From a virus: a stretch of DNA of 23,413 nucleotides. The notes beneath the pieces were generated by a model, which was not told the origin of the DNA, did no database searches, and saw only the letters and a list, made by a program, of their open reading frames with translations. Of the stretch, positions 719-23,413 are shown piece after piece (the stretch's first letter is position 1; every line of letters starts with the position of its first letter). Location of the stretch: positions 1-23,413 of IMG/VR virus record IMGVR_UViG_3300012532_000113; one strand, written 5' to 3'. Position numbers and translations under genes: made by a program.

Positions 719-915
719 GCGTGCGCGTCCACCTCGGGCTCCCGATCTGTTGGGAATGCGGTATGGCTTACTTCCATGACTGGCGTCTGCCAAACGAGGC
801 CGTTCATCCTGAGACTGCCAAGTGCTCCAACAGTAGCAAGCGGATAGGGGTACCCTGCTTTACATGTAAAGAGCTTCCTCCCCGGCCCCCCCACGCGGTA
901 TCGCCGCGTGCTTAA
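715..915 (+). CDS. small cysteine-rich protein (zinc-ribbon-like)
   Basis: This 66-residue protein has CWEC at residues 12-15 and CFTC at 48-51, with another Cys at 37. Two CxxC knuckles about 32 residues apart suggest a small zinc ribbon. It starts with an ATGA overlap on the previous gene, so translation is probably coupled. Its last 8 bases overlap the terminase start. The C-terminal tail is Pro/Arg-rich. It is the second cysteine-knuckle protein in a row before the terminase. Function is unknown; a nucleic-acid-binding accessory factor is a guess. A short ORF could be chance, but the paired motifs and exact overlaps argue for a gene. Confidence 0.6.
   Translation: MSVRVHLGLPICWECGMAYFHDWRLPNEAVHPETAKCSNSSKRIGVPCFTCKELPPRPPHAVSPRA
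892..910 (+). promoter_or_regulatory. hairpin containing the terminase start codon
   Basis: CACGCGG at 892-898 and CCGCGTG at 904-910 are perfect inverted repeats around a five-base loop (TATCG). The last three bases of the right arm are the GTG start of the terminase gene. No ribosome binding site lies just upstream of that GTG. Ribosomes finishing the 66-residue gene (stop at 913-915) would melt the stem, so translational coupling is the simplest reading. Confidence 0.45.
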
Positions 916-3511: not shown

Positions 3512-5197
3512 ATGGCAACCAAAGCTGCAACGATCAGCAACGAGTCACTTCTCATCCGCGAGCTGGACACCCTCCAAGAGCTGTCACGTAACCATCGCGA
3601 TAACTACCTCGGTGCTAACTTCTTCTCTGGCGTTCGCGATGTGTACAACCTCACTCCACCTGCAGTCGCTGCCCCCACCTTCCGTCCTTATGTCAACATC
3701 CCACAATTCCAATCGTTGATGCTGATGGAAGCCAGCGACCTTGCTGACAGCGACCCCAAGATTTACATCACCGGCCCTGATGGCAAACAAGACCACGAGC
3801 GCGAAGCAGCCTTTAACGGCCAGTGGCACCGCGGCCAGTTTTCACTCCAAATCCTCTACGCCTCCTTGTGGTCACTGCTCGGCGGCACCGGCTTCATCCA
3901 GGTTGGCTACGATCCCCTTGCCCGGCGCGGTAGCGGCGAAACTTACCTACGCTGGCGTGACCCATCAACCTGCTATCCTGACCCTGCCTCTACCAGCGAG
4001 ACCGACTGGTACTACTTCCAGATCGAAGAGAGGCTGTGGCCTGACGAAATCCGCCGCCGCTTCCCGCGCGCCTACCCCACCGGCATCGGCCAAGCCACAC
4101 CCTCCAGCGGCATGGGCGGCAGCGAACATCAGTGGGGCTCAAGCGGCAATCTTCGTATGCCTCCAGGCCCGATGAGTGCGGTGGGCAACCAGCCTGCCGA
4201 ACGCACCCTTGGCCCTGCTGATGGTCGCCGCACAGTACGTTACACCTTCATTTACGACAGTAACGTAAGAGAAATCGTCAAGGACGCAGCAGGCAGCAGC
4301 ACCCCCACCGACCGCGTGATCCCTGCAAAGTTCGAGCTGCTATTCCCCAACGGGCGCTACATCGTCGATTGCGACGGGGTTGTTCTGTTCGATGGCGACA
4401 ACCCCTACCCTATGGCACAGTTCCCCATAGCCCGCATCCTCTCACTTCCCGCTCTCACCTCATTCTGGTGCCCCCCTCCCTCTCGCTACACCTACGAACT
4501 TCAAGACCTAGCCTCTCGTATGCTGCGTCAGGTGTTCGAAAACTTCGTGCGTACCAACAACAGTGTGTGGGTGCTTGACGGCAATAGTGGTCTCACGCGC
4601 GAGAACTTCAGTGGCCTTCCGGGTGAGATCGTGATGATCGACGGTAATGGTAAGCCGCCAGTACAGGTAGCCCCGCCACCCTTCCCCGCCCAAGCCCTCA
4701 ACTTCCCACAGTTCCTGCTTGCACTCCAGAAGGAACTCCAAGGCTTCCCACCTAGCCGCGAGGGCAAAACCGGCAGCGGTAACGTAGGCACAGACCTATT
4801 CGACAGCAGCGTGATGCAGTCTCAGGCCATCACCCGCCTCCGCGCCAAGCTGCTTGCCACCGGCGTCCAGCGTATCTCAGAGCTAGCTTTCTACACTATG
4901 GCTAAGTATCAACTCAAGGGCCGCTACCCCTCCTTCGAAAACGGCCTCAAGCTTACAGACTGGAAGAGCATCGAACCAGATAAGATGCGTGACTACGAGG
5001 TGTTCCTTGACCCCGCATCTATCCGCCCCATCAGCGCCTCAGCACTACGCAAGATGGTTCCTGAGCTACGCAAGCTGCAGGTGATGGACACCCGCTCCGC
5101 ACTGGGTATGCTTGACATCCCAGGCGCAGACGAGATAGCTAACCGGATCGAAGCTGAGAAGGCGCTGGAGGCTCTCTCCAAGCTGAAGCGGAGGTAG
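3512..5197 (+). CDS. portal protein (head-to-tail connector ring)
   Basis: This 561-residue protein would form the ring at the capsid vertex through which DNA enters and leaves. It follows the terminase at the expected place and has portal-like features. These include the strand pair around GGTGFIQVGYDP (about 124-135) followed by LRWRDPSTCYPDP, an NPYPMAQFPIARIL segment (297-310), the long stem helix YELQDLASRMLRQVF (about 328-342), and a wing segment ending in LPGEIV (369-374). The C-terminal part is helical and charged. The ATG at 3512 follows the previous stop by one base; the only ribosome binding site is a weak AGGT, so coupling is likely. Which portal family it belongs to needs a profile search. 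Confidence 0.82.
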   Translation: MATKAATISNESLLIRELDTLQELSRNHRDNYLGANFFSGVRDVYNLTPPAVAAPTFRPYVNIPQFQSLMLMEASDLADSDPKIYITGPDGKQDHEREAAFNGQWHRGQFSLQILYASLWSLLGGTGFIQVGYDPLARRGSGETYLRWRDPSTCYPDPASTSETDWYYFQIEERLWPDEIRRRFPRAYPTGIGQATPSSGMGGSEHQWGSSGNLRMPPGPMSAVGNQPAERTLGPADGRRTVRYTFIYDSNVREIVKDAAGSSTPTDRVIPAKFELLFPNGRYIVDCDGVVLFDGDNPYPMAQFPIARILSLPALTSFWCPPPSRYTYELQDLASRMLRQVFENFVRTNNSVWVLDGNSGLTRENFSGLPGEIVMIDGNGKPPVQVAPPPFPAQALNFPQFLLALQKELQGFPPSREGKTGSGNVGTDLFDSSVMQSQAITRLRAKLLATGVQRISELAFYTMAKYQLKGRYPSFENGLKLTDWKSIEPDKMRDYEVFLDPASIRPISASALRKMVPELRKLQVMDTRSALGMLDIPGADEIANRIEAEKALEALSKLKRR

Positions 5198-7408: not shown

Positions 7409-8404
7409 ATGCCAGCAGTCTCAGCAGCGGGAGCACAGGGAACCGGGTTGGCATCACCGCCGACTGTCCTCCTCAACACGGCCAACGCGGTTACACAAAA
7501 ATATGTGATGCCGGTTTTGGGCGATACTGTACTTATACCAAGCCCTACCTTCTGGGCGCTCACCCGCCGCGGCAAGAAGTTCAGCGGCGGCAGCTTGGTC
7601 TACCCGGTTCTCACTCAGGAAGAAACCACAGGCGGCGCTTATCAGGGCGACCAGATTCTCGACACCTCTGTAATCGACAGCGTTGCGCCTGCTGAGTCGC
7701 AGTGGCGCTTCTATCGCCAATCAATCACCCTCCCTATCACCGATGTCATCCTCAACCGAGGCGGTGCAGGGGCGCTTGATCTGATCAAGACCAAGTACAC
7801 CATCATGGCTGGCAGCTTCATGATGAAGCTGTGCCGGGCGCTGTGGCATACCGCCCCACAGAACACTACCATCGACATCGACGACATCGATGCTTGGGTT
7901 GGCTCAACCTCCAACACCATCGCAGGCATCGACCGCAGCGTGGCCGCAAACTCCTGGTGGCTGCCTCAGTCCAACGTCGCCATCGGCGCAGCTCTCTCTG
8001 CAACCAACGGCGAGGTTGGCTACCAAGCAGCAGTGTTCGGCTACGACGAGCCCGACACCCTCATCCTCGACCAGACGCGCTTCGCCAACTTCAAAACCAA
8101 CTTCACTCAGCTTATCCGCTTCATGGACACCATCCAGGACAAGGAAGCTCTCCAGGTTGGCTTCCGCTACCACTTCGTCTGGAACAACGCGACTGTACTG
8201 CCTGACCGTTTCTGTCCTGCATCAGTTGGTTACTTGCTGAACAGCAACTACATCTTCCCGGTGTTCCACGAGTCGGACTACTTCGTGGTTGATCCGTTCA
8301 TCAAGCCGTCCAACCAGCGCGTGATATCGAGTACCTGCTACCTCACATGGCAGCTTGTGTGCCCGTCGCCGCGCATGAACGTGAAGTATACGACGCTTTC
8401 GTAA
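7409..8404 (+). CDS. major capsid protein (HK97 fold expected)
   Basis: This 331-residue protein would build the icosahedral shell. Its size, position after the scaffold candidate and a strong AGGAGG site (7398-7403) fit a highly expressed capsid gene. Residues 167-184 (STSNTIAGIDRSVAANSW) match a segment I recall from phage major capsid proteins, where a T-x-x-GIDR stretch is followed by a Trp. Residues 40-115 give the expected E-loop and P-domain pattern (SGGSLVYPVLTQEE, ITLPITDVILNRGG). A C-terminal sheet includes RVISSTCYLTWQLVCPSPR. No long N-terminal delta domain is visible, consistent with a separate scaffold. Confidence 0.82.
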   Translation: MPAVSAAGAQGTGLASPPTVLLNTANAVTQKYVMPVLGDTVLIPSPTFWALTRRGKKFSGGSLVYPVLTQEETTGGAYQGDQILDTSVIDSVAPAESQWRFYRQSITLPITDVILNRGGAGALDLIKTKYTIMAGSFMMKLCRALWHTAPQNTTIDIDDIDAWVGSTSNTIAGIDRSVAANSWWLPQSNVAIGAALSATNGEVGYQAAVFGYDEPDTLILDQTRFANFKTNFTQLIRFMDTIQDKEALQVGFRYHFVWNNATVLPDRFCPASVGYLLNSNYIFPVFHESDYFVVDPFIKPSNQRVISSTCYLTWQLVCPSPRMNVKYTTLS

Positions 8405-8864: not shown

Positions 8865-9326
8865 ATGATTTGCACCAAGTGCAAAGCAGATTTACCGGAG
8901 ACAGAGTTTCACGCCGATAAACGGCGACGGGTTTACGGAATTCGGCCTTGGTGCAAAGCGTGTATTAATACATACAACAGAATTAACTACAGCAAGCGTG
9001 TTAATCGCGGTGTATACACAGTAAGTGTATCCAGCCGACAGCGTCTCCGTGAGTTGGTGTTAGATGCTTACGGTAGACGCTGTACATGCTGCGGAGACAC
9101 ACAGGAGGAATTCTTGACAATTGACCACATCAATGGAGGAGGAAACGCGCATGTACGTGCTGTTGGCAATGGCTATCAGATGCTTGTAGATATAGTAGCG
9201 CAGAACTTCCCTAAAGATGAGTTCCAAATCCTCTGTTGGAACTGCAATGCAGTGAAGCGTTACGGTGCAACCTGTCCTCATACAGCCTTTGATGTAGCTG
9301 CCATAACTGAGGGTATGGCGTGTTAG
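8865..9326 (+). CDS. HNH endonuclease, stand-alone (homing-type)
   Basis: This 153-residue protein has an N-terminal zinc finger (C3, C6, C30, C33) and an HNH nuclease core. The core has C73 and C76, DHINGGG with D87, H88 and N90, H96, then C124-W-N-C127-N. The metal-knuckle and catalytic residues all appear present. ATG 8865 has AAAGGA upstream; an in-frame ATG at 8820 would overlap the previous gene and add 15 unlikely residues. Sample 60-base lines within it count 52% and 42% GC, against 58% for a line of the capsid gene. Its TAG stop is part of the next gene's AGGAGG, so the insertion leaves both neighbours intact. It is probably a mobile homing endonuclease, though a packaging-associated HNH is a less likely option. 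Confidence 0.88.
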   Translation: MICTKCKADLPETEFHADKRRRVYGIRPWCKACINTYNRINYSKRVNRGVYTVSVSSRQRLRELVLDAYGRRCTCCGDTQEEFLTIDHINGGGNAHVRAVGNGYQMLVDIVAQNFPKDEFQILCWNCNAVKRYGATCPHTAFDVAAITEGMAC

Positions 9327-10580: not shown

Positions 10581-13000
10581 CAATGCTCCCCCAGCGCAAG
10601 TTCATCCGTGGTTTCAACGCCTCAACCCCTGCGATCACGCAGCCTCAGGGCACCTTGCCGCGTGGCTCCAATCTCACGCTTGCTAAGCGCGGCGGGCTGC
10701 GCGTTGCATACGGCAGCTCAACCTACTCTCTACTCAACGGTGCCTTAGCTGCTAATGCCAGCATTGCCGATATGCTGCTGCTACAGACAATAGGTGTCAC
10801 CCCCGTCCTTATAGCGGCAGTGTTCGATGCTGCTGCAGGTGTCTATACACTAGTCTATGTCCCAGTTGGCTCCTACTCTCTCACTGGCCTAGGTCTCATC
10901 GGGCCACTTCTCATCAACGCTACAGTACCTCCTACAACCCCCCGCCTGATGCAGTTCAACGATCAGGTTATCATCACCTTAGGCAACAACACCACCCCTA
11001 ACTACTGGTGCGGGGTCAGTGTAGTTACAAATAGTTGGACAGCCTCAACGCTCACAGCTCTAAACACCATCATTGGTATAGATCGTGGGGCATACTTCGA
11101 TGTGTTCCGTGCCACTTTCATCACAGGTAACACCAAGACAGGCACCACGCAGCCAAACTGGGATGTCTCTCCTGGCAACACGACTGTAGACAACAACGTA
11201 ACTTGGACATATCTAGGACAGAACAAGCCAGCGCCCTTAGTCAACATCTTCCAGGTTGTGTACCCCCAGTGGCTTCCTACCACTACCATTACCCCTAACA
11301 CCGTCATCCAGGTGGGATTCTATGGTACTGGTGTTTACGGCTCCTGGCTAGGTAATCATAACTACGCCTTTGGCACCATCATCAAGGACAGTAACGGTAA
11401 CTTGCAGCAGGTAGTACTTGCTAACGGCAGCACCTCAGGCTTTGGTAAGTCCAGCCCTACCGTGCCCACCTGGGGCACAGCAATAGGCCAACAAACCACC
11501 GACAACCAGCTTGTGTGGCAGTGCCTTGGCCCAGCCGCGACCACAGCCGCAACCCTACTACTGTACTGGCAGCCAAGCACACGCTACAACTTTGGCTACA
11601 TCATCGACCCCAACAACAACGTCCAGAGGGCTGGTGACAATGACCCCACAGGCACATCTGAACCTGCCAACTGGGGCACAACTATAGGTGCAACCACCAC
11701 TGATGGCAGCACGGTCTGGACAAACAAAGGCCCAGCAACGTTCTACAACTTCACAGCCGTCCAAGGTGGCACCACAGGTGCAGGCCCGCAGCCTCCACAC
11801 TTCAGTAGCGCCATCAATAGCCGCTTAGCTGACAACAACGTGGTGTGGCAAAACACCGGTCTCACCTCTCAATCCTCCCAACCTCCCCGTGGCGCACGCT
11901 CTGCTGTTGTCTATGCAGGCTCACTTTGGGTGCTCAACACCTCCCCCTTCACTACTTCCGACAGGGCTGATGGCCCCACAGCGCTTCGTATGAGCGAGCT
12001 GAACAATCCTAATAGCTGGAACCCCATCAACATCGCCTTCCTCGGCAAAGACGACGGGACAGTTGGCACCGGCCTCGCAACCTTCACGATAGCTGAGAGC
12101 GGCATCACTCCTACCGGCTCGCTTATTGCATTCAAAGACTATAGCACCTACCAAATCATTGGTGTATTTGGCAGCGACAACTTCCAGATTATCCAAGCCC
12201 AAACTGACATGGGCTGCATCGCCTCTGACAGTATTCAGTTCCTTCCAGGTTACGGGATCGCACGCCTCACCCATCTCGGCCCGGCGCTGTTTAATGGCGT
12301 GCGTGACCAGCTTTTTGGTGAGGAAATTCGCCCCTACATCTTCGGTGACGTACCCGACATAACCCAGGTAGATGCAACCTTTATCTCACGTGCCTTCAGC
12401 GCTCAGTGTACCGACCCACCTATGTACCTCTTGGCTGTACCAATGCCAGGAACTAACGGCGGGCTCACGCGCATTCTCGCCTATGACCTTGTGCTTAAGT
12501 CCTGGGCAGCTCCTATCGACCTCCCTTGGCCTATAAGCTGCATCCGTGAGATTCGCCAAACCGGCAGCGGCCTTACAGTCATCACGCTCACAGGTGGCTC
12601 CACCGATGGCAGTTTCCGTCAGGTGTTCGATGACACAGGTCTCACAGGCTGGGTAGACACACCGGCTGTAGGCACTCTCACTCCTGTAGCATGGAGCGTC
12701 CGCACCCCAGAGGTGTTCAGTAAGAGCGTCGCGGAGGGTGTCTATGCACGTGGCCTTTATGTTCGTGGCAACGGTATGGCAAGTGGGATCAAAGCCACAA
12801 TCACTGCTGACAGCGGGGTTGTGCAAGCTCTCACCATGAAGCAGGTACAACTCGCAAACGGAGACTTTGAAGCGTGGCTCCCTTTCCACATCATCTGCAA
12901 AACCATCCACGCAGACCTTAGCGGCTCCGGCCCAGGCGAGCTGTATAGCTTCGATTGGGATGCTGAGCCACAACCCGCAGCTCCACAGGTGTTAATGTGA
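10577..13000 (+). CDS. tail nozzle or stabilisation-like protein with four internal repeats
   Basis: This protein of about 807 residues is the probable nozzle of a short tail, the role of T7 gp12 or P22 gp10. Beta-propeller-like segments occur near GSLWVLNTSPFTTS (448-461), LNNPNSWNPINIAFLGKDDG and SLIAFKDYSTYQIIG, a layout I recall from phage nozzle or stabilisation proteins. Inserted at 169-429 are four W-Y-G repeats. I chose GTG 10577 for its GTGA overlap with the adaptor stop; ATG 10583 and GTG 10565 are alternatives. GGAGG at 10557-10561 could pair with CCTCC at 10571-10575, so the binding site may be masked until the adaptor gene is translated. Its C-terminus overlaps the next gene. Confidence 0.65.
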   Translation: MTMLPQRKFIRGFNASTPAITQPQGTLPRGSNLTLAKRGGLRVAYGSSTYSLLNGALAANASIADMLLLQTIGVTPVLIAAVFDAAAGVYTLVYVPVGSYSLTGLGLIGPLLINATVPPTTPRLMQFNDQVIITLGNNTTPNYWCGVSVVTNSWTASTLTALNTIIGIDRGAYFDVFRATFITGNTKTGTTQPNWDVSPGNTTVDNNVTWTYLGQNKPAPLVNIFQVVYPQWLPTTTITPNTVIQVGFYGTGVYGSWLGNHNYAFGTIIKDSNGNLQQVVLANGSTSGFGKSSPTVPTWGTAIGQQTTDNQLVWQCLGPAATTAATLLLYWQPSTRYNFGYIIDPNNNVQRAGDNDPTGTSEPANWGTTIGATTTDGSTVWTNKGPATFYNFTAVQGGTTGAGPQPPHFSSAINSRLADNNVVWQNTGLTSQSSQPPRGARSAVVYAGSLWVLNTSPFTTSDRADGPTALRMSELNNPNSWNPINIAFLGKDDGTVGTGLATFTIAESGITPTGSLIAFKDYSTYQIIGVFGSDNFQIIQAQTDMGCIASDSIQFLPGYGIARLTHLGPALFNGVRDQLFGEEIRPYIFGDVPDITQVDATFISRAFSAQCTDPPMYLLAVPMPGTNGGLTRILAYDLVLKSWAAPIDLPWPISCIREIRQTGSGLTVITLTGGSTDGSFRQVFDDTGLTGWVDTPAVGTLTPVAWSVRTPEVFSKSVAEGVYARGLYVRGNGMASGIKATITADSGVVQALTMKQVQLANGDFEAWLPFHIICKTIHADLSGSGPGELYSFDWDAEPQPAAPQVLM
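11081..11863 (+). repeat. four degenerate protein repeats within the nozzle-like gene
   Basis: Repeat units lie at about 11081-11221, 11339-11533, 11564-11734 and 11735-11863. The shared pattern is W-x4-Y-x-FG-x2-I, then N-x2-Q, then GT(S/T)-x2-P-x-W-x-T-x2-G-x-TT-x-DN-x-V-x-W-x3-G. Units 2 and 3 are the fullest; units 1 and 4 lack the first half or have lost its key residues. The start of each full unit resembles small carbohydrate-binding modules, so glycan binding is a reasonable inference. The DNA is diverged, so the copies are old. Confidence 0.7.
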
Positions 13001-13413
13001 TTACTGCTAGCACTGCCACTGCAATCCGCCATCCTCACCAGGGTGAGCACATCCCTGAAGCTGCGTGGCCAAGCTTTGCTGCCTGCATCGATCCTGAGTG
13101 GGCATGGGTGGCGGTTGACGAGGATGACCGTGTTGTGGCCACGCTGCTGACCGCCCCTGCCCACGGCCTTGTCATGCTGCTTCGCTTGTGGGCAGCCCCA
13201 GGCACCTCTCCCCATTGGCTGCGAAAGCTCTTGCGCCAAGGTGCAAAGGAGTGCTATGCTCGCGGACAAAGGGTATGGGTAGTCATGCTCATGGCAGGTA
13301 GCAGCACTGAACTTCGCCTAGCTCGACTTGCTCTGCATCACAAAGGAACACCTACCAGCTTCCAAGGTTTCGTCTACGCCGGTAGTTTGGAGGATGTATG
13401 CCGCCACTCTTAG
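12997..13413 (+). CDS. GNAT-fold-like protein in the tail module
   Basis: This 138-residue protein starts at a GTGA overlap with the nozzle gene. The pattern WAWVAVDEDDRVVATLLTA (35-53), LLRLWAAPG (61-69), a helix HWLRKLLRQGAKECYARG (73-90) and a strand RVWVVMLMA (92-100) resembles the core of GNAT acetyltransferases. The acetyl-CoA loop (Q/R-x2-G-x-G/A) is not clear, so catalysis is doubtful. T7 gp13, in a similar genome position, is also described as GNAT-like, so a role in virion assembly rather than acetylation is plausible. The last 16 bases overlap the next gene. Confidence 0.45.
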   Translation: MITASTATAIRHPHQGEHIPEAAWPSFAACIDPEWAWVAVDEDDRVVATLLTAPAHGLVMLLRLWAAPGTSPHWLRKLLRQGAKECYARGQRVWVVMLMAGSSTELRLARLALHHKGTPTSFQGFVYAGSLEDVCRHS

Positions 13414-13883
13414 CGCTTCTCCCGGCCCTGATTGGGCTTGGAGGTGGCCTTGCTACCACAACCATGCAAGGAGACGCTGCTGCAGCGCAACGCAAGGCCC
13501 AAATGGAGGCTCTCAACGCGCAGCTCAACGCGCGGAAGCAAGACCAGCAGCGCTCTGCTGTGCTTGGTGGCGTGCAAGGTGCGTCCAGCGGCCAAGCGGC
13601 AACCAGCGGCACTGTGCTCCCTGAGTTTCTTGCCGGCATCGGTGCTGGCCCTGGCTCAACCCCCAACACCATCCAGCAAGCTGTCAATAGCTGGCTGGGG
13701 CTTAACCAAACCGGCAGCTCTCCTGGTGGTGGCACCGATCCGGCAGCAGCAGCCTCAGTCGCTGGTGGCGGTGGCAGCGCAGGTGTAGGCTTCCCCACAG
13801 CCGCAGTTCCAGCCTTTGCAGCTTTGCTAGAGCAGCAGCAAGGGGGCGGCGAGGCTGGCAGCCTGAGTGGAGGCATGTCGTGA
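13398..13883 (+). CDS. internal virion protein candidate with hydrophobic N-terminus
   Basis: This 161-residue protein begins with a membrane-like segment (PLLALLPALIGLGGGLATT, 3-21). A charged helix follows (AAAAQRKAQMEALNAQLNAR, about 27-46), then a long Gly/Ala/Ser-rich flexible tail. TGGAGG at 13388-13393 precedes the ATG. A short glycine-rich hydrophobic N-terminus followed by an Ala/Gln/Asn helix is typical of the small ejection proteins in the T7 gp14 position. The call comes from position and composition; no conserved motif is visible. It overlaps both neighbours by a few bases. Confidence 0.5.
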   Translation: MPPLLALLPALIGLGGGLATTTMQGDAAAAQRKAQMEALNAQLNARKQDQQRSAVLGGVQGASSGQAATSGTVLPEFLAGIGAGPGSTPNTIQQAVNSWLGLNQTGSSPGGGTDPAAAASVAGGGGSAGVGFPTAAVPAFAALLEQQQGGGEAGSLSGGMS

Positions 13884-14458
13884 GCGACTTCCTCACAACG
13901 ATCACCAAGACGTTTCCTGAGAATGGGCCGAATGCTGGCAGCCCGATGGCAGGTATCGGCACTCTCGGACAGCTTGGTGTAGGCGGCATGGGCATCATCG
14001 GCAACATCATCAGTGCCATCCGCGCTAACCAAGTCAGCAGTGACCTACAGAAGCAACAGAAGCTGGTGATGGAACTCGCACGCAACCCAGCGATGCTTGC
14101 TGCACGTGCCCGAGCGCTGCAACAGCCGCTGAGCCAGTCACTTCTCAGCAACGTAGGCAGTGGCGTACAGTCTCAGCTCCAGTCACGCGGGCTGGGCAGC
14201 AGCCCCGCACAGGCTGGTGCAATCATGTCGCAAACCCTCGCACCCTACGAACAGCGCCAACAGGAAGAGGCGATGAACTCGCTGCTCAACCTGCTCGGCA
14301 TGGGCAGCACAGCAGGCACGGCAGCAGCAGGTGCAGTCCCTAAGCCTGCTGACACCAGTGGCTTCTGGAAGACGTTCATGCCACAGGCGTCAACGCCAGC
14401 AACAGGTGCCCCAAGCCTCACTTTCGACACTGACACCGACAGCGGCTGGGGGGGTTAA
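13880..14458 (+). CDS. internal virion (ejection) protein candidate, 192 residues
   Basis: GTG 13880 overlaps the previous stop as GTGA. Residues 25-48 form a glycine-rich hydrophobic stretch (GIGTLGQLGVGGMGIIGNI) followed by a basic helix. Residues 50-140 are helical and Gln/Ala-rich (SSDLQKQQKLVMELARNP, AARARALQQPLSQSLL, PYEQRQQEEAMNSLLNLLG). The tail is disordered and acidic. Its length is close to that of T7 gp14 (about 196 residues), but the sequence does not identify it. With the preceding gene it probably encodes minor virion proteins ejected with DNA. The next gene begins three bases after the stop. Confidence 0.5.
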   Translation: MSDFLTTITKTFPENGPNAGSPMAGIGTLGQLGVGGMGIIGNIISAIRANQVSSDLQKQQKLVMELARNPAMLAARARALQQPLSQSLLSNVGSGVQSQLQSRGLGSSPAQAGAIMSQTLAPYEQRQQEEAMNSLLNLLGMGSTAGTAAAGAVPKPADTSGFWKTFMPQASTPATGAPSLTFDTDTDSGWGG

Positions 14459-14461
14459 CCT

Positions 14462-15661
14462 ATGGGCGGCTTTGGCGGTTTCGCGCAGGGGCTTGGTACT
14501 GAAGCCACAAACATCTCGCAAGCTAAGCGCGACCGCACCCAGGAGGGCATTGCTAAGGCTAACCTCGCCTTCCAACAGCGTCAGCAGCAGCTTCACAGTG
14601 AGCACTACAAAGCATTAGAGCGGATTGCGGAGCAGCGGCTGGCAGCAACCGGCAACAAGCCTGACAAACTCACGCAAAACAAGCTAGCCGTTGCAACCAT
14701 CTTTGGTGTTGATGACTGGGAAGCAATCCCCCCTGAGCAGCAAGACAAGGCCCGCACGCTTCTTGCTGTCCTTGAAAGCAACAAGCAGATTCTTGGCTCT
14801 GACGTTGTACAATCTCCTGACTCTGCCACAGGCGCATCCAAGCAACGCATCAACGCCCTTACAGGTCAGGTGCTCTCCACCACTCCCAACATCACCACCC
14901 CCGGCGCTGAGCACGACACCAAGGTAGCTATCCCGGCACGTAAGGAAGCACAGCAGGCAGGCTTTGCTGAGCAAGAAAAGCTACTCAAGATGCGAGGGGC
15001 TGAGCAGGAGAAGCTGCAACAGATGCGCCTCGCAGGCCAGACTTACTCCACCCGCCTCCGTGAAGCAGGGCAGATGGCGCGTCTCAAGTACCGCCTGAAG
15101 TATCAAACTGAGCACCCGAATGCGCGAAGCTCTGGCCAAGTCGGTAACGTGCTCGCTGGGCTTGCTGTGCTCAAAACCTCTCTTCATGGCGGCGAAAGCA
15201 TAGACGGCCAGCATGTCGCTGGGCTCGACAGCACCTTTAACGTTCTCGACAACCCCGCCAGCCGCGCTAAGCTGTCAGCCGTGTTTCACAAGCTAGGCGT
15301 CGAGCGTGACCAGAGTATCCTCAGCAAGCTGGTTCCTGAGTTCATCTCCGACCCAGCCAACGCTGCAGTCTTCAGCCAGCTCAGCGAACCTGAGCGCAAC
15401 TATCTCTACCAGATGCAGAACACCGCAACTGCTGTGCAGGTGCTGCGTACCATCGAGGGCACTCCTCGCTCCACCGAAGCGCTGATGCAGCGCTATGTAC
15501 GTGAGCTAAGCGACCCTGTGATGGTTACTAGCTCCAAGGACGCTAAGTACAAGATCGCGCTTATCGACCGCGACATCCACCAAGCTGAGAAGATGCTGCA
15601 GCTAAGTGCTGCCCCCACAGCGCCTAAGGCACCGCTTCAGAACGCTGCCGATCTACCGTAA
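14462..15661 (+). CDS. large internal virion protein candidate, coiled-coil
   Basis: This 399-residue protein has two long charged helical segments, at about 12-65 and 145-215, the second with a tandem repeat of AEQEKLxxMR. From about 225 to 390 it is an all-helical domain (SRAKLSAVFHKLGVERDQSI, AVQVLRTIEGTPRSTEALMQ, KIALIDRDIHQAEKMLQ). A Gly/Phe-rich start (MGGFGGFAQGLG) resembles the previous proteins. Genes of this kind after the nozzle usually encode proteins stored in the head or portal and ejected to form a channel. No lysozyme or transglycosylase motif is visible. ATG 14462 has no strong ribosome binding site; coupling to the gene that ends at 14458 is likely. Confidence 0.5.
   Translation: MGGFGGFAQGLGTEATNISQAKRDRTQEGIAKANLAFQQRQQQLHSEHYKALERIAEQRLAATGNKPDKLTQNKLAVATIFGVDDWEAIPPEQQDKARTLLAVLESNKQILGSDVVQSPDSATGASKQRINALTGQVLSTTPNITTPGAEHDTKVAIPARKEAQQAGFAEQEKLLKMRGAEQEKLQQMRLAGQTYSTRLREAGQMARLKYRLKYQTEHPNARSSGQVGNVLAGLAVLKTSLHGGESIDGQHVAGLDSTFNVLDNPASRAKLSAVFHKLGVERDQSILSKLVPEFISDPANAAVFSQLSEPERNYLYQMQNTATAVQVLRTIEGTPRSTEALMQRYVRELSDPVMVTSSKDAKYKIALIDRDIHQAEKMLQLSAAPTAPKAPLQNAADLP
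14966..15031 (+). repeat. two 33-base tandem coding repeats
   Basis: Bases 14966-14998 and 14999-15031 encode AEQEKLLKMRG and AEQEKLQQMRL. By hand count 23 of 33 bases match, and the differences in the first six codons are all synonymous. This is an old in-frame tandem duplication that lengthens a coiled-coil helix by three turns. Confidence 0.6.
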
Positions 15662-15666
15662 CCTAT

Positions 15667-17538
15667 ATGGCTGACACACCCACTATCGAGGTATTCAACG
15701 AAGCCAAGGGCACCAACGCCACTATCCGCAACACGCCTGAGGAACTCGCTACGGCCAAGTCCAAGGGCTATGCCCCGCGCCAGGAGCTGCCCCCACCACC
15801 GCTGCCTCAAAGTGTCCTGCACCCTACTGACAAGCTGGCTGGGCAGGTCAGCCGAATGGCTGCTGTTCCTACTGGCTTGGTGGGCAGCGTTGGCAAGGCG
15901 GTTACTGGCTCTGACCCAATCCAGCACCCAGGCCCGGCAGCAGGTGTAGGCGCCGCGATGCTGGCATCCCTCCTCATGGGGCCAGAGCTTGGCTTAGCAG
16001 CCCGTTCCGCAATCACAGGTGGCAGCGGGGCGCTTGGCTATACAGCAGCCTCTGAGCACCCAACCTTGAAAGGCGCAGCAGGCACTGCTCTCCTCGCTGG
16101 TCCTGGCATGGAGATTCCCAGCTCTCTCATCAGCAAGCTGGCAACTCGCCTCTTCACAGGCCGCTTAGGGACGCTCCCCGGTGGCCGCTTACCTGATGAG
16201 CCGCTCGTTCCAGCAAGGTTCGGCCAAGTCGCTTCCGATTGGTCTAAGCGCTACCTCAACTTCCGTGGCGTAAGCGGGCGGGCTCTCAAGGAAGAGATCA
16301 CCACACGTGCAGGCCAAGACATCATCGACATCGCGCAGGGCGGTGGCCCACTTGCGCCCTTTGGGCAAAGCGTGAAGGATACGCTGCTTGATGTAACCAA
16401 GCCAGCCTTCCAGAAGATCGCAGCCGACATGGTTGGCGACCTCAAGATGGCAACTCAAGGCATCGAGGTTAACACGCTTCCGCTTCAGCTCACTGCTCAG
16501 CAGCTCAGACACGAACTTATGCAAGTGTCGCAAACTGTAGACCCGCAGCTTGTCGCGGCAGCGCTTCAGGGTGGTGTCAATCCACCAATCCTCAACACTG
16601 CACTCCCTGCCACCGAGTCCATAAGCCTCCTACGTGACATAAGCAAGCTTCCAGAGAAAGCTGACTTCATGCAGCTCTTTGAGCTGCGCAAGCGCTGGTG
16701 GAAGGCCACAACCGAGCCATACCTCCAGCAAGGCATCAAGCCGCCTGCAATCTACCGTAAGATCTATGGCGAGTTGACACAAGCGATGGACACCGCAGCA
16801 GCTATCGACCCTGCCGCCAACACCATCTGGCAGGAGTTCCGCAACAACTATGCAGAAGACGCCAACCTCCTCCACAGTCGCCTGCTCAAGTACATCGCCC
16901 AACGTGATCCTGAACAGGTCGCCAAGAACTTTGGCAAGAACGCTGAGACACCTGCAAAGCAGCTTGTACGTGCCCTGGTCGGCATCCCTGAAGAGTACGC
17001 TCGCCGCTTCCCCGGCCCAGACAGTGCCGCAGCAGTCACCCAAGGCCAGCAGGCGCTACACAACTTCCGCATTGCGCTCATCCGCACCAAGCTGTCAGAC
17101 GGAGGTGTGTTCAAACTTAGCCAGCACCTTAACGACATGGGCGACACTGGCCTCACCACCCTCTTCGGTGGCGATGCTGAAGGCAAAGCGCTGCTGAGCC
17201 GCGTCCGCTCTGTAGCCGATCGCCTTGACTACCTCAGCACCATCCAAGCTCCTCAGCTCGCCACCTATGTTGGCTACCTCCGTGGCATCCCATCACAGAT
17301 AATGAGCCACATCCTCGCTAATCCACAACTCTCTAAGCTCTACATGACGGGGCTCAACGGACTGATCGACTCCAACTCTCGTGCCAAGGGGCCAATGCTG
17401 GCAGCTAGCCATATCGTAACCGACCGCACTGCACGCTACTTTGCACAAATCGGTCGGGCTTGGTATCTTGCTGAGCACCCCGAGGACATGAAGCCTCTCG
17501 CTTCGCACCTCCCTACGCTACTTGGAGGCAAGCCATGA
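15667..17538 (+). CDS. large internal virion protein candidate, 623 residues
   Basis: This protein is probably the largest ejected virion protein. A Pro-rich N-terminal region (to about 60) is followed by a Gly/Ala-rich hydrophobic stretch at 88-145 (AAMLASLLMGPELGLAARS, GAAGTALLAGPG) that could insert into membranes. Residues 185-600 are helical and charged, as in proteins that build a trans-envelope channel (QRDPEQVAKNFGKNAE, SRVRSVADRLDYLSTIQA). No enzymatic motif was recognised. The ATG follows the previous stop by five bases with only a weak ribosome binding site. The stop overlaps the next ATG as ATGA. Role is inferred from order, size and composition. Confidence 0.5.
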   Translation: MADTPTIEVFNEAKGTNATIRNTPEELATAKSKGYAPRQELPPPPLPQSVLHPTDKLAGQVSRMAAVPTGLVGSVGKAVTGSDPIQHPGPAAGVGAAMLASLLMGPELGLAARSAITGGSGALGYTAASEHPTLKGAAGTALLAGPGMEIPSSLISKLATRLFTGRLGTLPGGRLPDEPLVPARFGQVASDWSKRYLNFRGVSGRALKEEITTRAGQDIIDIAQGGGPLAPFGQSVKDTLLDVTKPAFQKIAADMVGDLKMATQGIEVNTLPLQLTAQQLRHELMQVSQTVDPQLVAAALQGGVNPPILNTALPATESISLLRDISKLPEKADFMQLFELRKRWWKATTEPYLQQGIKPPAIYRKIYGELTQAMDTAAAIDPAANTIWQEFRNNYAEDANLLHSRLLKYIAQRDPEQVAKNFGKNAETPAKQLVRALVGIPEEYARRFPGPDSAAAVTQGQQALHNFRIALIRTKLSDGGVFKLSQHLNDMGDTGLTTLFGGDAEGKALLSRVRSVADRLDYLSTIQAPQLATYVGYLRGIPSQIMSHILANPQLSKLYMTGLNGLIDSNSRAKGPMLAASHIVTDRTARYFAQIGRAWYLAEHPEDMKPLASHLPTLLGGKP

Positions 17539-17738
17539 AGGGTATCAAACGTAAGCGCGGCAGAGGCCACAGCGCCCACGCTGCCAACAACGCCATAGGC
17601 AACAAGATCAGAGTGCTGCGTCATGAGAACGTCCCTGAGAAGCAAGCTGTTGCGATGGCTCTCAACATGAAGCGTGAGGGCCGCTTAGGGCCACATGGGG
17701 AATATCGTCGCAAGAAGCGGCACGGCAGGAGGGGGTAA
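17535..17738 (+). CDS. small basic protein with a KQAVAMAL motif
   Basis: This 67-residue, very basic protein has VPEKQAVAMALNMKREG at 33-49. The KQA(V/I)A-x-AL stretch is one I recall from many small phage proteins encoded among structural genes; their function is unknown. The C-terminus RKKRHGRRG shares KKRHGRR with the 22-residue peptide at 5761-5829. Its last codons, AGG AGG GGG, also form the ribosome binding site of the next gene. It overlaps both neighbours (ATGA before, TAATG after). DNA or RNA binding is likely from charge only. Confidence 0.65.
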   Translation: MKGIKRKRGRGHSAHAANNAIGNKIRVLRHENVPEKQAVAMALNMKREGRLGPHGEYRRKKRHGRRG

Positions 17739-19579
17739 TGCGTCACAGACTGCTAGTTCTAGCAATCTTCATCACCACACTGGTAAGCAGCGCAGCAGCT
17801 CAGTACACCAATGTCAGTGGCACCATTCATGACGTGAACGGCACAGCTTACCAAAACTGCAAAGGGAGCATCAGCTTTATCAACCTGAGCACCCTCCCGC
17901 AGCAACCCTTGCTCCACGGCTCCGTGTTCCAAACAGAGATACCGATCAGCGGCTGCGATAGCTTTGGTCACTTCGCTGCACGCCTCGCAGATAACAACCA
18001 GATTACTCCCACTCCGTCGCAGTGGCAGTTTACCTTATGCAACTCTGCTGGTAACATTTGCTTCACCACGCGCCTGACCATCACAGGCAGCTCGCAAGAC
18101 GTAGGCACAGCTCTGAGTGCAGCAGCTCCCCCACTACCTAACCCTGGGGGCGGCGGCGGTGGTGGCTTCCCTACAGGTACTGGCATCGCGGCTGTGTCTA
18201 ATGGCAACGCTTGGGGAGCTACCTATAACGCCAGCAATCAGCTTCCCAAGGAGTTCGTGCCGTTTAGCTCCCCTGGCCCCTTAGGCAACGTAGCCCCCTC
18301 GACAGTCAACTCCACAGAGCTATACTCAAGTGAGGTTGCTACCACCCCTAGCTCCCTCCCTATCTGCCCCAACGGCAACGGCGGCAAGTTCACAACTACC
18401 GGCTGCTCCGGCAGCGCTTCAAACGTAAACGAGAACATAATCGCCAAGGCTGACAGCAGCCATGCGCTGATAAGCAGCTCCATCACCGACACAGGCTCAG
18501 CAGTCTCCACACCGTCACCAGTTACCATCGGCACCAGCAACCCTACTAATTACGTTACCATCGTGCCTCCTGGCACACTAGGCACAACCTACACTCAGCA
18601 GCTCCAAGCAGCTAACGGCACCATTGCGCTCCAAGGCGATTTCGACGCAACAGGTGCAGCAGCCAGCGTGCAGATCAACCTCACTTCAGAGACTAATCGT
18701 GCCATAGCAGCAGAAGCCCTCCTGGCTCCTAAAGCCTCACCAATCTTCACAGGTACCATCACAGCCCCAACAGCAAACGTTACCGACCTTACTATCTCAG
18801 GTACCTGCAACGGTTGCTCCAGCCCAGCGCCGTCATTCGCCAACCTCAGTAGCGGCACCAACACGGCTGCCACGATGACCGTAGGCACAGGTGCGAGCAT
18901 CGTACCGTCCGGCAGCGGCGCGATCCACGCGACCATCTCAGACAACCTCACTGGCACCCCAACTGTCCCCAATGGTACCGCTGCCACCACCCAGTCTCCC
19001 AGCGACGGAAGCACCAAGCTGGCTACCACAGCTTATGTGGATGCGGCTGTCGCAATAGGTGGAAGTGGTGACGTAAGCGGGCCAGCCTCGGCAGTAAGTG
19101 GCAACGTCGCAACATTCAACGGTGCGACTGGTAAGTTGATTCAGGACAGCGGCAAGGTGCTACCAGCAGGCACGGTTGTAGGTACATCTGATACGCAAAC
19201 CCTCACCAACAAGACTCTCGATGGCGTTACCCCAGCTACGATGGCCTTTGTTGACCCTACCAGTAGCATCCAGACGCAGCTCAACAGCAAGCAGGCTACG
19301 CTGATAGCCAACGCTACTACCACAGTCGGCACATCTGCTATCGGCGGCAACACCTGCACCAGTGCCACAACAGTTACAATGACAGGTGTAGCCACAACCT
19401 CAACATTTAACTTCACACCTAACGCAGATGTTAGTAGTGTCACTGGCTGGGGATCGACAGGTGGCCTCAAGATTGTACCTTGGCCTACCACCAACACCCT
19501 TAACTACAAGGTGTGTAACTCTACAACTGCTAGCATCATCCCATCAGCGTCAGTGACATTCAACGTAAGTGCGAGGTAA
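17738..19579 (+). CDS. tail-fibre-like protein with a Sec signal peptide
   Basis: This 613-residue protein begins with a clear signal peptide: basic MRHR, hydrophobic core LLVLAIFITTLV, then SSAAA-Q with cleavage after A21. AGGAGGG at 17727-17733 fixes the start, so the signal is translated. Residues 24-130 resemble a transthyretin-like fold found in secreted proteins (VSGTIHDVNGTAYQN). After a Gly-rich linker come tail-fibre motifs: LAPKASPIFTGTI (about 328-340), DGSTKLATTAYVDAAV (about 418-433) and GTSDTQTLTNKTLDG (about 481-495). The C-terminal 80 residues are a Thr-rich beta domain. Cys occur in close pairs (41/73, 101/108, CNGC near 357). It is probably a receptor-binding fibre, but export is unexpected for a virion protein. 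Confidence 0.75.
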   Translation: MRHRLLVLAIFITTLVSSAAAQYTNVSGTIHDVNGTAYQNCKGSISFINLSTLPQQPLLHGSVFQTEIPISGCDSFGHFAARLADNNQITPTPSQWQFTLCNSAGNICFTTRLTITGSSQDVGTALSAAAPPLPNPGGGGGGGFPTGTGIAAVSNGNAWGATYNASNQLPKEFVPFSSPGPLGNVAPSTVNSTELYSSEVATTPSSLPICPNGNGGKFTTTGCSGSASNVNENIIAKADSSHALISSSITDTGSAVSTPSPVTIGTSNPTNYVTIVPPGTLGTTYTQQLQAANGTIALQGDFDATGAAASVQINLTSETNRAIAAEALLAPKASPIFTGTITAPTANVTDLTISGTCNGCSSPAPSFANLSSGTNTAATMTVGTGASIVPSGSGAIHATISDNLTGTPTVPNGTAATTQSPSDGSTKLATTAYVDAAVAIGGSGDVSGPASAVSGNVATFNGATGKLIQDSGKVLPAGTVVGTSDTQTLTNKTLDGVTPATMAFVDPTSSIQTQLNSKQATLIANATTTVGTSAIGGNTCTSATTVTMTGVATTSTFNFTPNADVSSVTGWGSTGGLKIVPWPTTNTLNYKVCNSTTASIIPSASVTFNVSAR

Positions 19580-19580
19580 C

Positions 19581-22500
19581 ATGATGACCAGAGCTACACG
19601 CGCCGCACTTAACTTACTGTTCCTGCTGTTGTGCTTATCCTGCCTAGCTAACGCACAATTCACTGTTCCGGTATCTGATGACACAGCAGCTAGCGTCCCT
19701 GCTGGCCTCAACGTTGTGCAGTCCCGATCTAATTTCAGCAGTGGTACCAGCCAGACAACAATCACCGTCTCCATCAGCTCTACCCCAGGCCACCTGCTTG
19801 TAGCCTTCGTACGTGAGGGCAGCAACAACGCCGACAACTTCAGCGTTAGCGACAACCTCGCACAGGCTTGGACAACTACCAGCTACAACACTTTCAACAC
19901 CACCAACCGTAGCTGCTTCTTCTACAAAACAAACAGCAGCGCTGTCACATCAGTAACAGCTACCTTCACCACCAGTGGAGGGGTAACACGTCCTGGCATC
20001 ATCGTATACGAGATAAGCGGAGCAGCTACAGCGATTGACCCGAAAGACGCCGGGCCAGTACTCAACTCCACAGGCAACACTGTCACCTCTCTTGTAACTA
20101 GCCCTATGACTACTGTCCATGCGCCAGACATCTTACTAGTAGGTACAGATGTTGGATCTGACCAGACTGGCACTAATAATAGCTTCGCTCCTCCCGCTGG
20201 TTATGGCTTTGCAGTCACCGGCAGCTCTACCAATACCCGTCAAGCAGTGATGTACAGTATTGTCAACACTGTACAAACTGCTGTTACCGCTACCCCAGGT
20301 TGGGGTACAGGCGCACAAGCCAGCACATCATTTATCGCTTTCACAGTACCCAACACCAGCCCTGCAGCCCTCCAAGCTGTCACTGTCAATCCAACAACCG
20401 TAGTTGGAGGCAACAACTCAACAGGCACAGTCTCACTTACCAACGCCGCCCCGTCAGGTGGAGCCAACGTGCTACTATCCAGCAGTGATACGCACGCCCA
20501 GGTTCCTGGCAGCATAGTTGTACCATCAGGCGTCTCTAGTGCTAACTTCGTCGCCACCACCAGTGCAGTTACCACAAACATCTCTGCAGGTATCACAGGT
20601 ACCTACCTTGGTGTCCAAAGAACAGCCAATCTCACAATCACCCCACCGTCTCTTGGTGGCTGGTTCGCGGCTGATAGCTTTCTCAACACCCCTGTACCAT
20701 CCTGCGCACACGCCGGAACCTGCATAGCAGCTAGCTCTGCAGCATGGGTGTCGGGATCACTAATAAACACAGGAAATTGTCCGGGCGGCGGAAATACTTG
20801 CGAACATTTGTCTATTAGCGGTTATGGTGTAGGTGTGCTGTTATCAACATCAACTAATAGTACGGTACGAAGTGTGACTTGCACAAATTACAACACAAAT
20901 TCTTGTAATGTTGGCGGTACGGTACAGTTCCCTATTCCGAACGCGGCTGGGTCGAGTTCAATTCCGAGCGGATCGGATCACAGTATGGCGTTCATCTACG
21001 TGACGAACGACGCAAGCGGCTGGTATGGTAAGGAGCTAGATTGCTGGGCTACGACGTTCAACGGTACAACCTGGGCCTGCGATCCTAGCATTATTCAGAA
21101 CTTACCTGACGGCATCAACGATGGTGTACAGTCGCAAGCAGTAAAGAACAATGGCTGGGGAACGTGTGCTCCGTATGCAAACAAGCCTGTGCTGAATGCT
21201 GATGGTACGTTTGCCACTGGTACGAATTACGGATGCACTGGAAGTACAGCATCAGGCATCAGCTTCGCAGGTGGGCTGCTGAGAGCTAAAGAGGTAGGAC
21301 TATGCACGAATGAGACAACGTGTGCCACAGCAGTACGTCACTCCTTACAGTTTCAGGCCACGAATCTAGCCAACACCTCTAACTACGCCTGCCCCGCAAC
21401 TCATCAGGACACCGCTCCCAACCACGGAGCTGGCACAGGTGCCCCACAGGGCACACGGTTCTTCCTGCCAACAAGCTACAACATCGCGGCAAACGATGCT
21501 GGATGGACGCAGCTTGAAAAGGCGGTAGCCTATGCTCTACAGACCTATGGAGCATATGTACAAGACTACACAGGTGGTGGTTCACAAATCCAGGGTGAGA
21601 CTGCTGCCAATGACACAATCAATGGGAACACAGTGACGTGGAGTGGATTGGGCATTGGCGATGGTGCGCTGCTCAGTCACATCCCCTGGGCGCAGATGAA
21701 GTTCATGTCAGGCGCGTACTGTAATGGTGCAGGAGCAATCAGTACCGGCCCGACGTACTACGTAGCCACCACTGGGAATGACAGCAATGCTGGCACTGCA
21801 GCAGCACCTTGGCGCACCATCCAACACGCTGCTAACGTGGTCTCACCTGGTGATGTTATTCAGGTAGCAGCGGGAACGTATTCGGAAACGATTCTTAGCC
21901 AACGTAGCGGTACTGCTGCGGCACGCATTCGTTTTGTATCTACGACAAAGTGGGGCGCGCATGTTGTTTCGCCCGCAACTGGCGGCGGCGCGGCCTGGCA
22001 GAACGAAGCCAGCTATGTTGATATTGATGGGTTCGACGTTACTGGCAGCGCAGCATATGGGCTTAAGAACCAAACCGCCTCGTACACACATGTTACGAAC
22101 AACTACGTCCATGACATCCCAGCACTGAGCTGTATTCCTGGTGGTGGTATAGCTGAGGGCGGTTACAGCGCAGTACCCATGCCTACTGGCAATGAGTACA
22201 CCAGCAACCTAGTACGTGATGTAGGTCCGGCTCCTGGCACCTGCAACCAAAGCCACGGCATCTACATATCACTTCCCTATGCTAAGGCATACAACAACAT
22301 TGTCTACAACTCCGCAGGCCGTGGTATCCAGCTCTACCATGCGGCGACGAATGTGGTGGTGGAGAACAATACTATTTTTGGCAATGGTGATTGTATGGTG
22401 GTAAATGCCGACAGCGCTGCTGGCTACTCTATCAACGACAGCCGGATTTCAAACAACATCTGCTATCAGAACATCGGATACGGTATTTACTCTGGATCAG

Positions 22501-22760
22501 GCTTTGGCACCGGCAATCAGATTACGAATAACTCCGCATATGGCAACGGCACGAACTGGGGTACTATGCCGCACACGAGCGACATTGTGGGCGACCCTAG
22601 CTTTATCAACCCGACAGGGAGCTATTTCACCGGCAACTATCATCTCAGCTCAACTAGCCCGGCAATTGGTGCTGGGACAACAGTTGGCGCACCGCTAACA
22701 GACTTCGATGGCAACCCACGGTTGCCAACCACAAACGATGCTGGGGCTTACAGATACTAG
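19581..22760 (+). CDS. signal-peptide-bearing tailspike or depolymerase-like protein
   Basis: This protein of about 1059 residues has a signal peptide (MMTRATRAALNLLFLLLCLSCLANA, predicted cleavage before Q26). GAGGT at 19573-19577 suits ATG 19581 or 19584; an upstream GTG at 19569 is not needed. Predicted domains are a beta sandwich (about 27-255), an Ig-like repeat (about 258-352, VTVNPTTVVGG ... SGGANVLLSS), a Cys-rich central domain (about 353-722, with VAYALQTYGAYVQDYTGG), and a right-handed beta-helix (about 723-1059, starting TYYVATTGNDSNAGTAAAPW and ending SPAIGAG ... DFDGNPRLP). Beta-helices of this type occur in polysaccharide lyases and tailspikes. GC falls within the central domain. 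A host-cell glycan depolymerase is likely; the catalytic residues are not identified. Confidence 0.7.
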   Translation: MMTRATRAALNLLFLLLCLSCLANAQFTVPVSDDTAASVPAGLNVVQSRSNFSSGTSQTTITVSISSTPGHLLVAFVREGSNNADNFSVSDNLAQAWTTTSYNTFNTTNRSCFFYKTNSSAVTSVTATFTTSGGVTRPGIIVYEISGAATAIDPKDAGPVLNSTGNTVTSLVTSPMTTVHAPDILLVGTDVGSDQTGTNNSFAPPAGYGFAVTGSSTNTRQAVMYSIVNTVQTAVTATPGWGTGAQASTSFIAFTVPNTSPAALQAVTVNPTTVVGGNNSTGTVSLTNAAPSGGANVLLSSSDTHAQVPGSIVVPSGVSSANFVATTSAVTTNISAGITGTYLGVQRTANLTITPPSLGGWFAADSFLNTPVPSCAHAGTCIAASSAAWVSGSLINTGNCPGGGNTCEHLSISGYGVGVLLSTSTNSTVRSVTCTNYNTNSCNVGGTVQFPIPNAAGSSSIPSGSDHSMAFIYVTNDASGWYGKELDCWATTFNGTTWACDPSIIQNLPDGINDGVQSQAVKNNGWGTCAPYANKPVLNADGTFATGTNYGCTGSTASGISFAGGLLRAKEVGLCTNETTCATAVRHSLQFQATNLANTSNYACPATHQDTAPNHGAGTGAPQGTRFFLPTSYNIAANDAGWTQLEKAVAYALQTYGAYVQDYTGGGSQIQGETAANDTINGNTVTWSGLGIGDGALLSHIPWAQMKFMSGAYCNGAGAISTGPTYYVATTGNDSNAGTAAAPWRTIQHAANVVSPGDVIQVAAGTYSETILSQRSGTAAARIRFVSTTKWGAHVVSPATGGGAAWQNEASYVDIDGFDVTGSAAYGLKNQTASYTHVTNNYVHDIPALSCIPGGGIAEGGYSAVPMPTGNEYTSNLVRDVGPAPGTCNQSHGIYISLPYAKAYNNIVYNSAGRGIQLYHAATNVVVENNTIFGNGDCMVVNADSAAGYSINDSRISNNICYQNIGYGIYSGSGFGTGNQITNNSAYGNGTNWGTMPHTSDIVGDPSFINPTGSYFTGNYHLSSTSPAIGAGTTVGAPLTDFDGNPRLPTTNDAGAYRY

Positions 22761-22775
22761 GGGGTTACTAAAGTT

Positions 22776-23413
22776 GTGAAAAGGCTGACATACATAGTTG
22801 TGGTGCTGCTGTTAACTGGCGCTTACGTCCCTGCTCAACTCATCATCGGCAGCGGTGGGCAGATGATTTTAGGCGCTAACCCCGCAATTGTTGATGGCAA
22901 CACGCGTAGCGGCGTTGGTGTGCCCACCACCCCTGACGCAGCACTTAATGGCGACTTCTATACAGACACGTCCACCGGCTGCTTGTGGGGGCCTAAAGCA
23001 GCAGGGGCGTGGCCGGGATCAGCCGCTTTCTGCCCCAGCACCTCTCCGATGGTGTTTCCTGCTCAGGCAGGTATCCCTGTCTGCACAGGCACCCCATGCA
23101 CAGCTTGGACAACCAGTTTCGTCCCTCCTAGCAGCTCTATTGTCGGCATCAGCGATACACAGACGCTTACCAACAAGAGTATCAATGGCAGTGAGATTAA
23201 TAGTGGTACAGTCCCCCCAGCCTTCTTACCACTTCCTACAGCTAGCGCAGGTGGTGTCGTGCGCGCATTCGATTGTGCAACATTGGGTGCTGGCTATGTA
23301 ACACAGAAGATTGGCACAGATGGAATTATGACGTGTGCTGTAGCTAGCGGCGCAGTACCATCCAACTCATCGATTAAGGTAGCAACAACTACTGTGCTGC
23401 CAACAACAATTAT
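22776..23413 (+). CDS. second tail-fibre-like protein with signal peptide (3' partial)
   Basis: The frame is open from GTG 22776 to the window end (212 codons and two bases), with an in-frame TAG at 22758-22760 just upstream. It starts (M)KRLTYIVVVLLLTGAYVPA-QL, a signal peptide with predicted cleavage after Ala 21. Cys pairs follow in GCLW ... AFCPST, VCTGTPC and FDCA ... MTCA. GISDTQTLTNKSINGSEINSG is close to GTSDTQTLTNKTLDG in the 17738-19579 protein, a common tail-fibre motif. The AGGGGG before GTG is a weak ribosome binding site. It is probably a further fibre or fibre-like exported protein; the C-terminus is outside the window. Confidence 0.7.
   Translation, partial: MKRLTYIVVVLLLTGAYVPAQLIIGSGGQMILGANPAIVDGNTRSGVGVPTTPDAALNGDFYTDTSTGCLWGPKAAGAWPGSAAFCPSTSPMVFPAQAGIPVCTGTPCTAWTTSFVPPSSSIVGISDTQTLTNKSINGSEINSGTVPPAFLPLPTASAGGVVRAFDCATLGAGYVTQKIGTDGIMTCAVASGAVPSNSSIKVATTTVLPTTI

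Follow-up and report, generated by a model that had tools for sequence, protein, structure and literature searches.

Why would a tailed phage provide its fibres, which usually fold in the cytoplasm, with signal peptides for secretion? The question is raised by the window analysed here, the complete IMG/VR record IMGVR_UViG_3300012532_000113 (23,413 bases), which is a member of an uncultured, little-known podovirus clade from soil and closes with three consecutive fibre or depolymerase genes (genes 1 to 3, Table 1) carrying predicted Sec signals. The explanation that we favour, with a confidence slightly above even, is that these are late fibre/spike genes of podoviruses probably infecting Acidobacteriota, whose products would be exported by Sec, fold with disulfides in the periplasm and dock on tails at lysis. 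To the wider claim we give an even chance: tailed phages of Acidobacteriota may mature their whole receptor-binding fibre set in the periplasm with disulfides and their heads and tails in the cytoplasm, so that assembly is split and finished at lysis.

Sec signals on all three genes had been claimed in a first-pass annotation, and were confirmed by our own n/h/c-region heuristic and scoring, applied at the chosen start: a basic n-region, a hydrophobic core and small residues at -3 and -1 (small-X-small) precede Gln in MRHRLLVLAIFITTLVSSAAA (gene 1), MMTRATRAALNLLFLLLCLSCLANA (gene 2) and MKRLTYIVVVLLLTGAYVPA (gene 3), each cut and then followed by Q. The strong ribosome site claimed for gene 1 was also found, and since AGGAGG stands 5 bases upstream of an ATG that itself overlaps the preceding stop codon (TAATG), this signal is surely translated. 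Gene 2 starts at ATG 19581 with a GAGG-type site. The evidence is weaker for gene 3, at the contig end, with a GTG start (22776) and a weak and distant AGGGGG; it is the least certain of the three because a later ATG (22863) would remove the signal. Lipoprotein and twin-arginine signals were rejected (neither a lipobox nor an RR motif was found in the three genes), as were membrane anchors, since a cut site and Gln follow the hydrophobic core. Judged from their sequences, the signals are of Sec/signal peptidase I type, real and conserved, and almost certainly functional.

The conservation was assessed in 38 relatives (G001 to G038): 29 viral contigs found with the major capsid protein, and nine found with the N-terminal domain of fibre 1 (N-domain; the scan was seeded by a four-row subset of its alignment), all nine having the same capsid. 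Eleven of them, of 52-62 kb, have terminal repeats and were taken as complete circular genomes. Fibre 1 was matched in 17 of the first 29 relatives, many matches beginning within the signal peptide, and an iterated profile of the N-domain (~115 residues) collected 28, then 37 copies, every one at a protein N-terminus. A signal stands directly before the N-domain in 36 of the 37 called copies, or in 36 of 38 when the copy of G036, read by eye and without a signal, is counted. The signal sequences diverge strongly across the clade but remain signals: in G031 and G033, for example, the N-domains are near-identical and the signals quite different.

The first-pass annotation had argued that three signals in a row were not due to chance, and the comparison with other genes bears this out. 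Of the 220 core structural genes with 250 or more amino acids, none carries a signal at the called start (2 do when any nearby start is allowed), versus 53 of the 118 other large genes that lie downstream of the capsid gene; chance signals or wrong starts were thus rejected. Among the 63 downstream large genes left unmarked by the looser test, 45 encode cysteine-free proteins, and the fibre-like exceptions that were checked turned out either to have a signal when read from a different start or to begin with a signal-like sequence scoring under the limit. All 11 circular genomes contain at least one signal-bearing cassette gene, mostly two to four, and no large fibre gene without a signal was found in them.

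Evidence that the signals are used came from cysteine residues (window protein numbering). Cys41 and Cys73 covaried in the N-domain copies (both present in 19, neither in 16, a single one in none; p=2.5e-10), as did Cys101 and Cys108 (26 both, 8 neither, 1 single) and a third, alternative pair (4 both, 31 neither, 0 single). When the tree was built with those columns left out, the three pairs required at least 5, 7 and 3 changes, respectively, so that the pairing is not explained by shared descent alone. In the AlphaFold2 model of the N-domain, Cys101 and Cys108 lie at the ends of two adjoining strands. Furthermore, the median Cys content per 100 residues is 2.1 in signal-bearing cassette proteins and 0.60 in core virion proteins. 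Such paired and enriched cysteines are signs of an oxidising folding compartment, and the paired gain and loss suggests that the fibres fold outside the cytoplasm.

Homologous fibres lacking a signal, which the first-pass annotation would have taken as evidence against its claim, were confined to two contigs, G036 and G037. In both, the N-domain has Met exactly at the mature N-terminus and lacks any cysteine of the covarying pairs (the G037 protein has no Cys overall), and because signal and pairs are absent together, these copies support export. G037 groups on the tree with copies having both, which suggests a loss of signal and cysteines. Taken with the pairing and the enrichment, these copies make export well supported at the sequence level. 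It is very improbable, on the other hand, that the signals are functionless, as leftovers of captured host secreted genes or misread starts on fibres folding in the cytoplasm: host-like domains do occur and the start of gene 3 is weak, but the signals persist despite sequence divergence, the cysteines covary in pairs, signal loss accompanies cysteine loss, and the ribosome site of gene 1 is strong. The conserved, fast-diverging signals and the cysteine pairing indicate that the signal is under selection, not a mere leftover. Of the proposal that host-derived secreted modules had kept their signals, the first part therefore stands, in that some cassette domains are typical of bacterial secreted proteins, and the second, that the signal was merely kept, does not.

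The genes have several hallmarks of fibres or spikes: modular repeats, fibre motifs (gene 1 has ATTAYVDAAV and SDTQTLTNKT, gene 3 has SDTQTLTNKS) and a right-handed beta-helix at the C-terminus of gene 2 (PF13229, E=1e-10), the motifs and the beta-helix being in agreement with the initial reading. Folding in the cytoplasm without a signal, a usual but not strictly defining trait of fibres, is at variance with the signals of the N-domain copies. PHROG tail-fibre families were matched by some relatives, but not by genes 1 and 3 of the window. When compared with viral structures, the N-domain model resembled beta-sandwich domains found in the tail fibres of phages, N4-like fibres among them (best E=2.7e-5, TM score 0.4-0.6). 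In its C-terminal third, gene 2 is similar to beta-helix proteins that bacteria secrete, and a Pfam scan of 44 cassette proteins revealed beta-helix/DUF1565, ASH/Cep192-type Ig and GDSL lipase domains, all typical of bacterial secreted proteins, and no peptidoglycan-degrading domain. Within the late structural block, the genes either follow those for internal virion proteins or are placed between the capsid gene and the tail genes (G030, G033 and the cultured phage Tunturi_1, see below).

The signals and the cysteine pairing speak for export only, and exported proteins that never enter virions are the main, though less likely, alternative. They could be free depolymerases or adhesins, or decoys that mask receptors, whether in the periplasm or beyond the infected cell, and might loosen the matrix for progeny or block superinfection. 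The secreted-enzyme domains (GDSL, beta-helix, ASH Ig) would suit such proteins, as would the number of cassette genes, several in each phage, which may exceed the needs of a tail. However, as the complete genomes show no other large fibre candidate, their virions would then have no receptor-binding fibres; in addition, the genes are located inside the head-tail operon in G030, G033 and Tunturi_1, and fibres attached to virions are usually built in the same way, with a constant N-domain and a variable remainder. A mixed cassette, in which one or two N-domain proteins are virion fibres and the rest free secreted enzymes, is improbable: only part of the cassette genes carry the N-domain, but Tunturi_1 has the same type of cassette without an N-domain match, so that the domain is not required. 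Among the three explanations proposed at first, export to the periplasm with attachment at or after lysis thus fits best because of the late-operon position, the fibre-like fold of the N-domain and the absence of a large signal-less fibre gene from the complete genomes. Virion attachment, which we infer, is favoured by this shortage of other large fibre genes.

In the scheme of export and late attachment, host Sec would move each fibre precursor over the inner membrane, signal peptidase I would cleave before Gln, and the mature fibre would fold in the periplasm, where disulfides would form (an indirect reading of the cysteine pairing). Heads and tails would be built in the cytoplasm from Cys-poor, signal-less proteins. 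Lysis, in breaking the envelope, would bring the two pools together and let the fibres attach to the tails, probably via the conserved N-terminal domain. The gain may be an oxidising compartment for Cys-rich sugar-binding or sugar-cutting domains like those of secreted bacterial proteins. For P22 tailspikes and T4 fibres, attachment to completed particles in a lysate is established.

Several points weigh against this scheme. The viral fold matches of the N-domain are modest, and in the PDB the model matches dioxygenases, and these weakly; some of the cassette proteins resemble enzymes secreted by bacteria and could work unattached; and two scans of GTDB genomes did not reveal the host of the clade to which the window belongs. 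We know of no tailed phage with Sec-exported fibres. These GTDB scans, with the capsid and N-domain alignments, returned zero relatives, and thus neither a prophage nor a cellular N-domain protein; single-sequence scans of viral contigs with TerL, fibre 1 and gene 2 gave nothing, and INPHARED contained zero relatives of fibre 1.

A cultured comparison is provided by Tunturi_1, a podovirus infecting the acidobacterium Tunturiibacter psychrotolerans (PMC11924767); the main text on the Tunturi phages does not mention signal peptides (PMC11924767). Its signal-bearing genes start at 10371, 13940, 15931 (annotated tail spike) and 19474 (virion structural protein) and encode 10-32 Cys each, versus few or zero in its core virion proteins. 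Tunturi_1 is remote from the clade: only TerL (E=2e-38) and, distantly, the capsid (4e-9) match, and no N-domain match was found in it, yet it has the same kind of cassette. Its gp17 (L158, 19474-23025) and gene 29 of G015 share a Cys-rich beta-helix domain of ~590 residues (42% identity over 611 aligned columns), which follows 395 other residues in gp17 and comes directly after the signal in G015. Since these different N-termini both bear signals, the domain acquired its signal separately in the two proteins. Of eight further homologous open reading frames that were read, seven open with a signal or a sequence resembling one, and the eighth is truncated at its 5' end. The domain was also seen in other viral contigs, up to 231 kb. 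Tunturi_1 and Tunturi_2 are similar to the clade in having Cys-rich tail genes with signal peptides and the beta-helix domain, but differ in their own head-tail genes. No signals were found on the large structural and fibre genes tested in Tunturi_3 and Tunturi_4 (same host genus), BUCT555 and ctMlz233; the trait is therefore a property of particular phages rather than one imposed by the host. The clade's host is probably Acidobacteriota, an assignment made through Tunturi_1 only.

Compared with known systems, the cassette is similar to the spikes and fibres of P22-like and N4-like podoviruses in that late structural genes after the head-tail module encode a constant N-domain and a variable beta-helix or repeat remainder, and in the resemblance of the N-domain fold to tail-fibre domains, including N4-like ones; those fibres, however, are made and folded in the cytoplasm without a signal peptide. 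The coat proteins pIII and pVIII of filamentous phages are structural and made with cleaved signal peptides, but belong to the inner-membrane assembly of a non-tailed phage, whereas the virion of the clade is tailed and cytoplasmic. Sec-exported endolysins (Lys44 of fOg44 and signal-arrest-release (SAR) endolysins; PMC6116005) are likewise tailed-phage proteins using host Sec through a signal peptide, but are lysis enzymes and non-structural. A search of the open-access literature (subscription papers and preprints being outside this scope) gave no previous description of Sec signals on the fibres of tailed phages.

In the usual view, a tailed phage assembles its whole virion in the cytoplasm, and clade-wide fibre export, if true, would add a compartment to virion assembly. 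It would also explain the Cys-rich spikes, let phages use host secreted domains as receptor binders, and raise the question of a role for the fibres before lysis, when they could block superinfection or remodel the envelope. The pair Tunturi_1 and Tunturiibacter psychrotolerans makes fibre export testable now.

Table 1. Features of the window (positions from its first base).
Feature	Position	Strand	Remarks
TerL gene	908-2719		match to phrog_2
Portal gene, SU10/P22-like	3512-5197
Major capsid gene	7409-8404	+	phrog_9953, E=1.5e-21; query for finding the clade
Tail genes	starts 9336 and 10565
Last large virion gene upstream of the cassette	15667-17538	+	cysteine-free, signal-less proteins in the same place in relatives
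Shine-Dalgarno AGGAGG of fibre gene 1	17727-17732	+	5-nt spacer to ATG 17738
Fibre gene 1, 613 amino acids	17738-19579	+	signal peptide, N-terminal beta-sandwich domain, fibre repeats, conserved C-terminal domain
Fibre 1 signal peptide, residues 1-21	17738-17800	+	cut predicted before Gln22; AlphaFold2 helix 3-14, then ordered domain
Fibre 1 conserved N-terminal domain	17801-18139	+	37 called clade copies; model pLDDT (predicted local distance difference test) 92; covarying pairs Cys41-Cys73, Cys101-Cys108
Fibre 1 C-terminal domain	19223-19576	+	common to two other fibres, both signal-bearing
Fibre/depolymerase gene 2, 1059 amino acids	19581-22760	+	21 Cys; C-terminal parallel beta-helix
Gene 2 signal peptide, residues 1-25	19581-19655	+	cut predicted before Gln26
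Gene 2 beta-helix/DUF1565 region, residues 725-1059	21753-22757	+
Fibre gene 3, incomplete	22776-23413	+	truncated by contig end; SDTQTLTNK motif
Gene 3 probable signal peptide, residues 1-20	22776-22835	+	GTG start, weak ribosome site

Several internal virion genes reach to 17538 and are followed by a short gene (17535-17738) and the three fibre genes. The genes at 13880-15661 and 15667-17538 encode internal virion proteins ahead of the fibre cassette, and most of the relatives have zero Cys there, even in proteins of >1000 amino acids. At 8865-9326, amid the capsid-side genes, a protein with paired CxxC motifs is probably an HNH-type homing endonuclease, and the relatives have other small endonuclease-like genes in this place. 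A small gene within the structural operon (12997-13413) recurs in 21 genomes and is similar in position to the annotated acetyltransferases that BUCT555, ctMlz233, Tunturi_1 and Tunturi_3 have in their structural blocks. Finally, a small gene with a twin-arginine-like start (MDRRDFFRTAG..., MSLSRRDFFKK...) recurs 3' of the fibre cassette in G016, G017 (contig positions 9434-9991), G025, G026 and G011, a lipobox-like Cys coming next in several cases.

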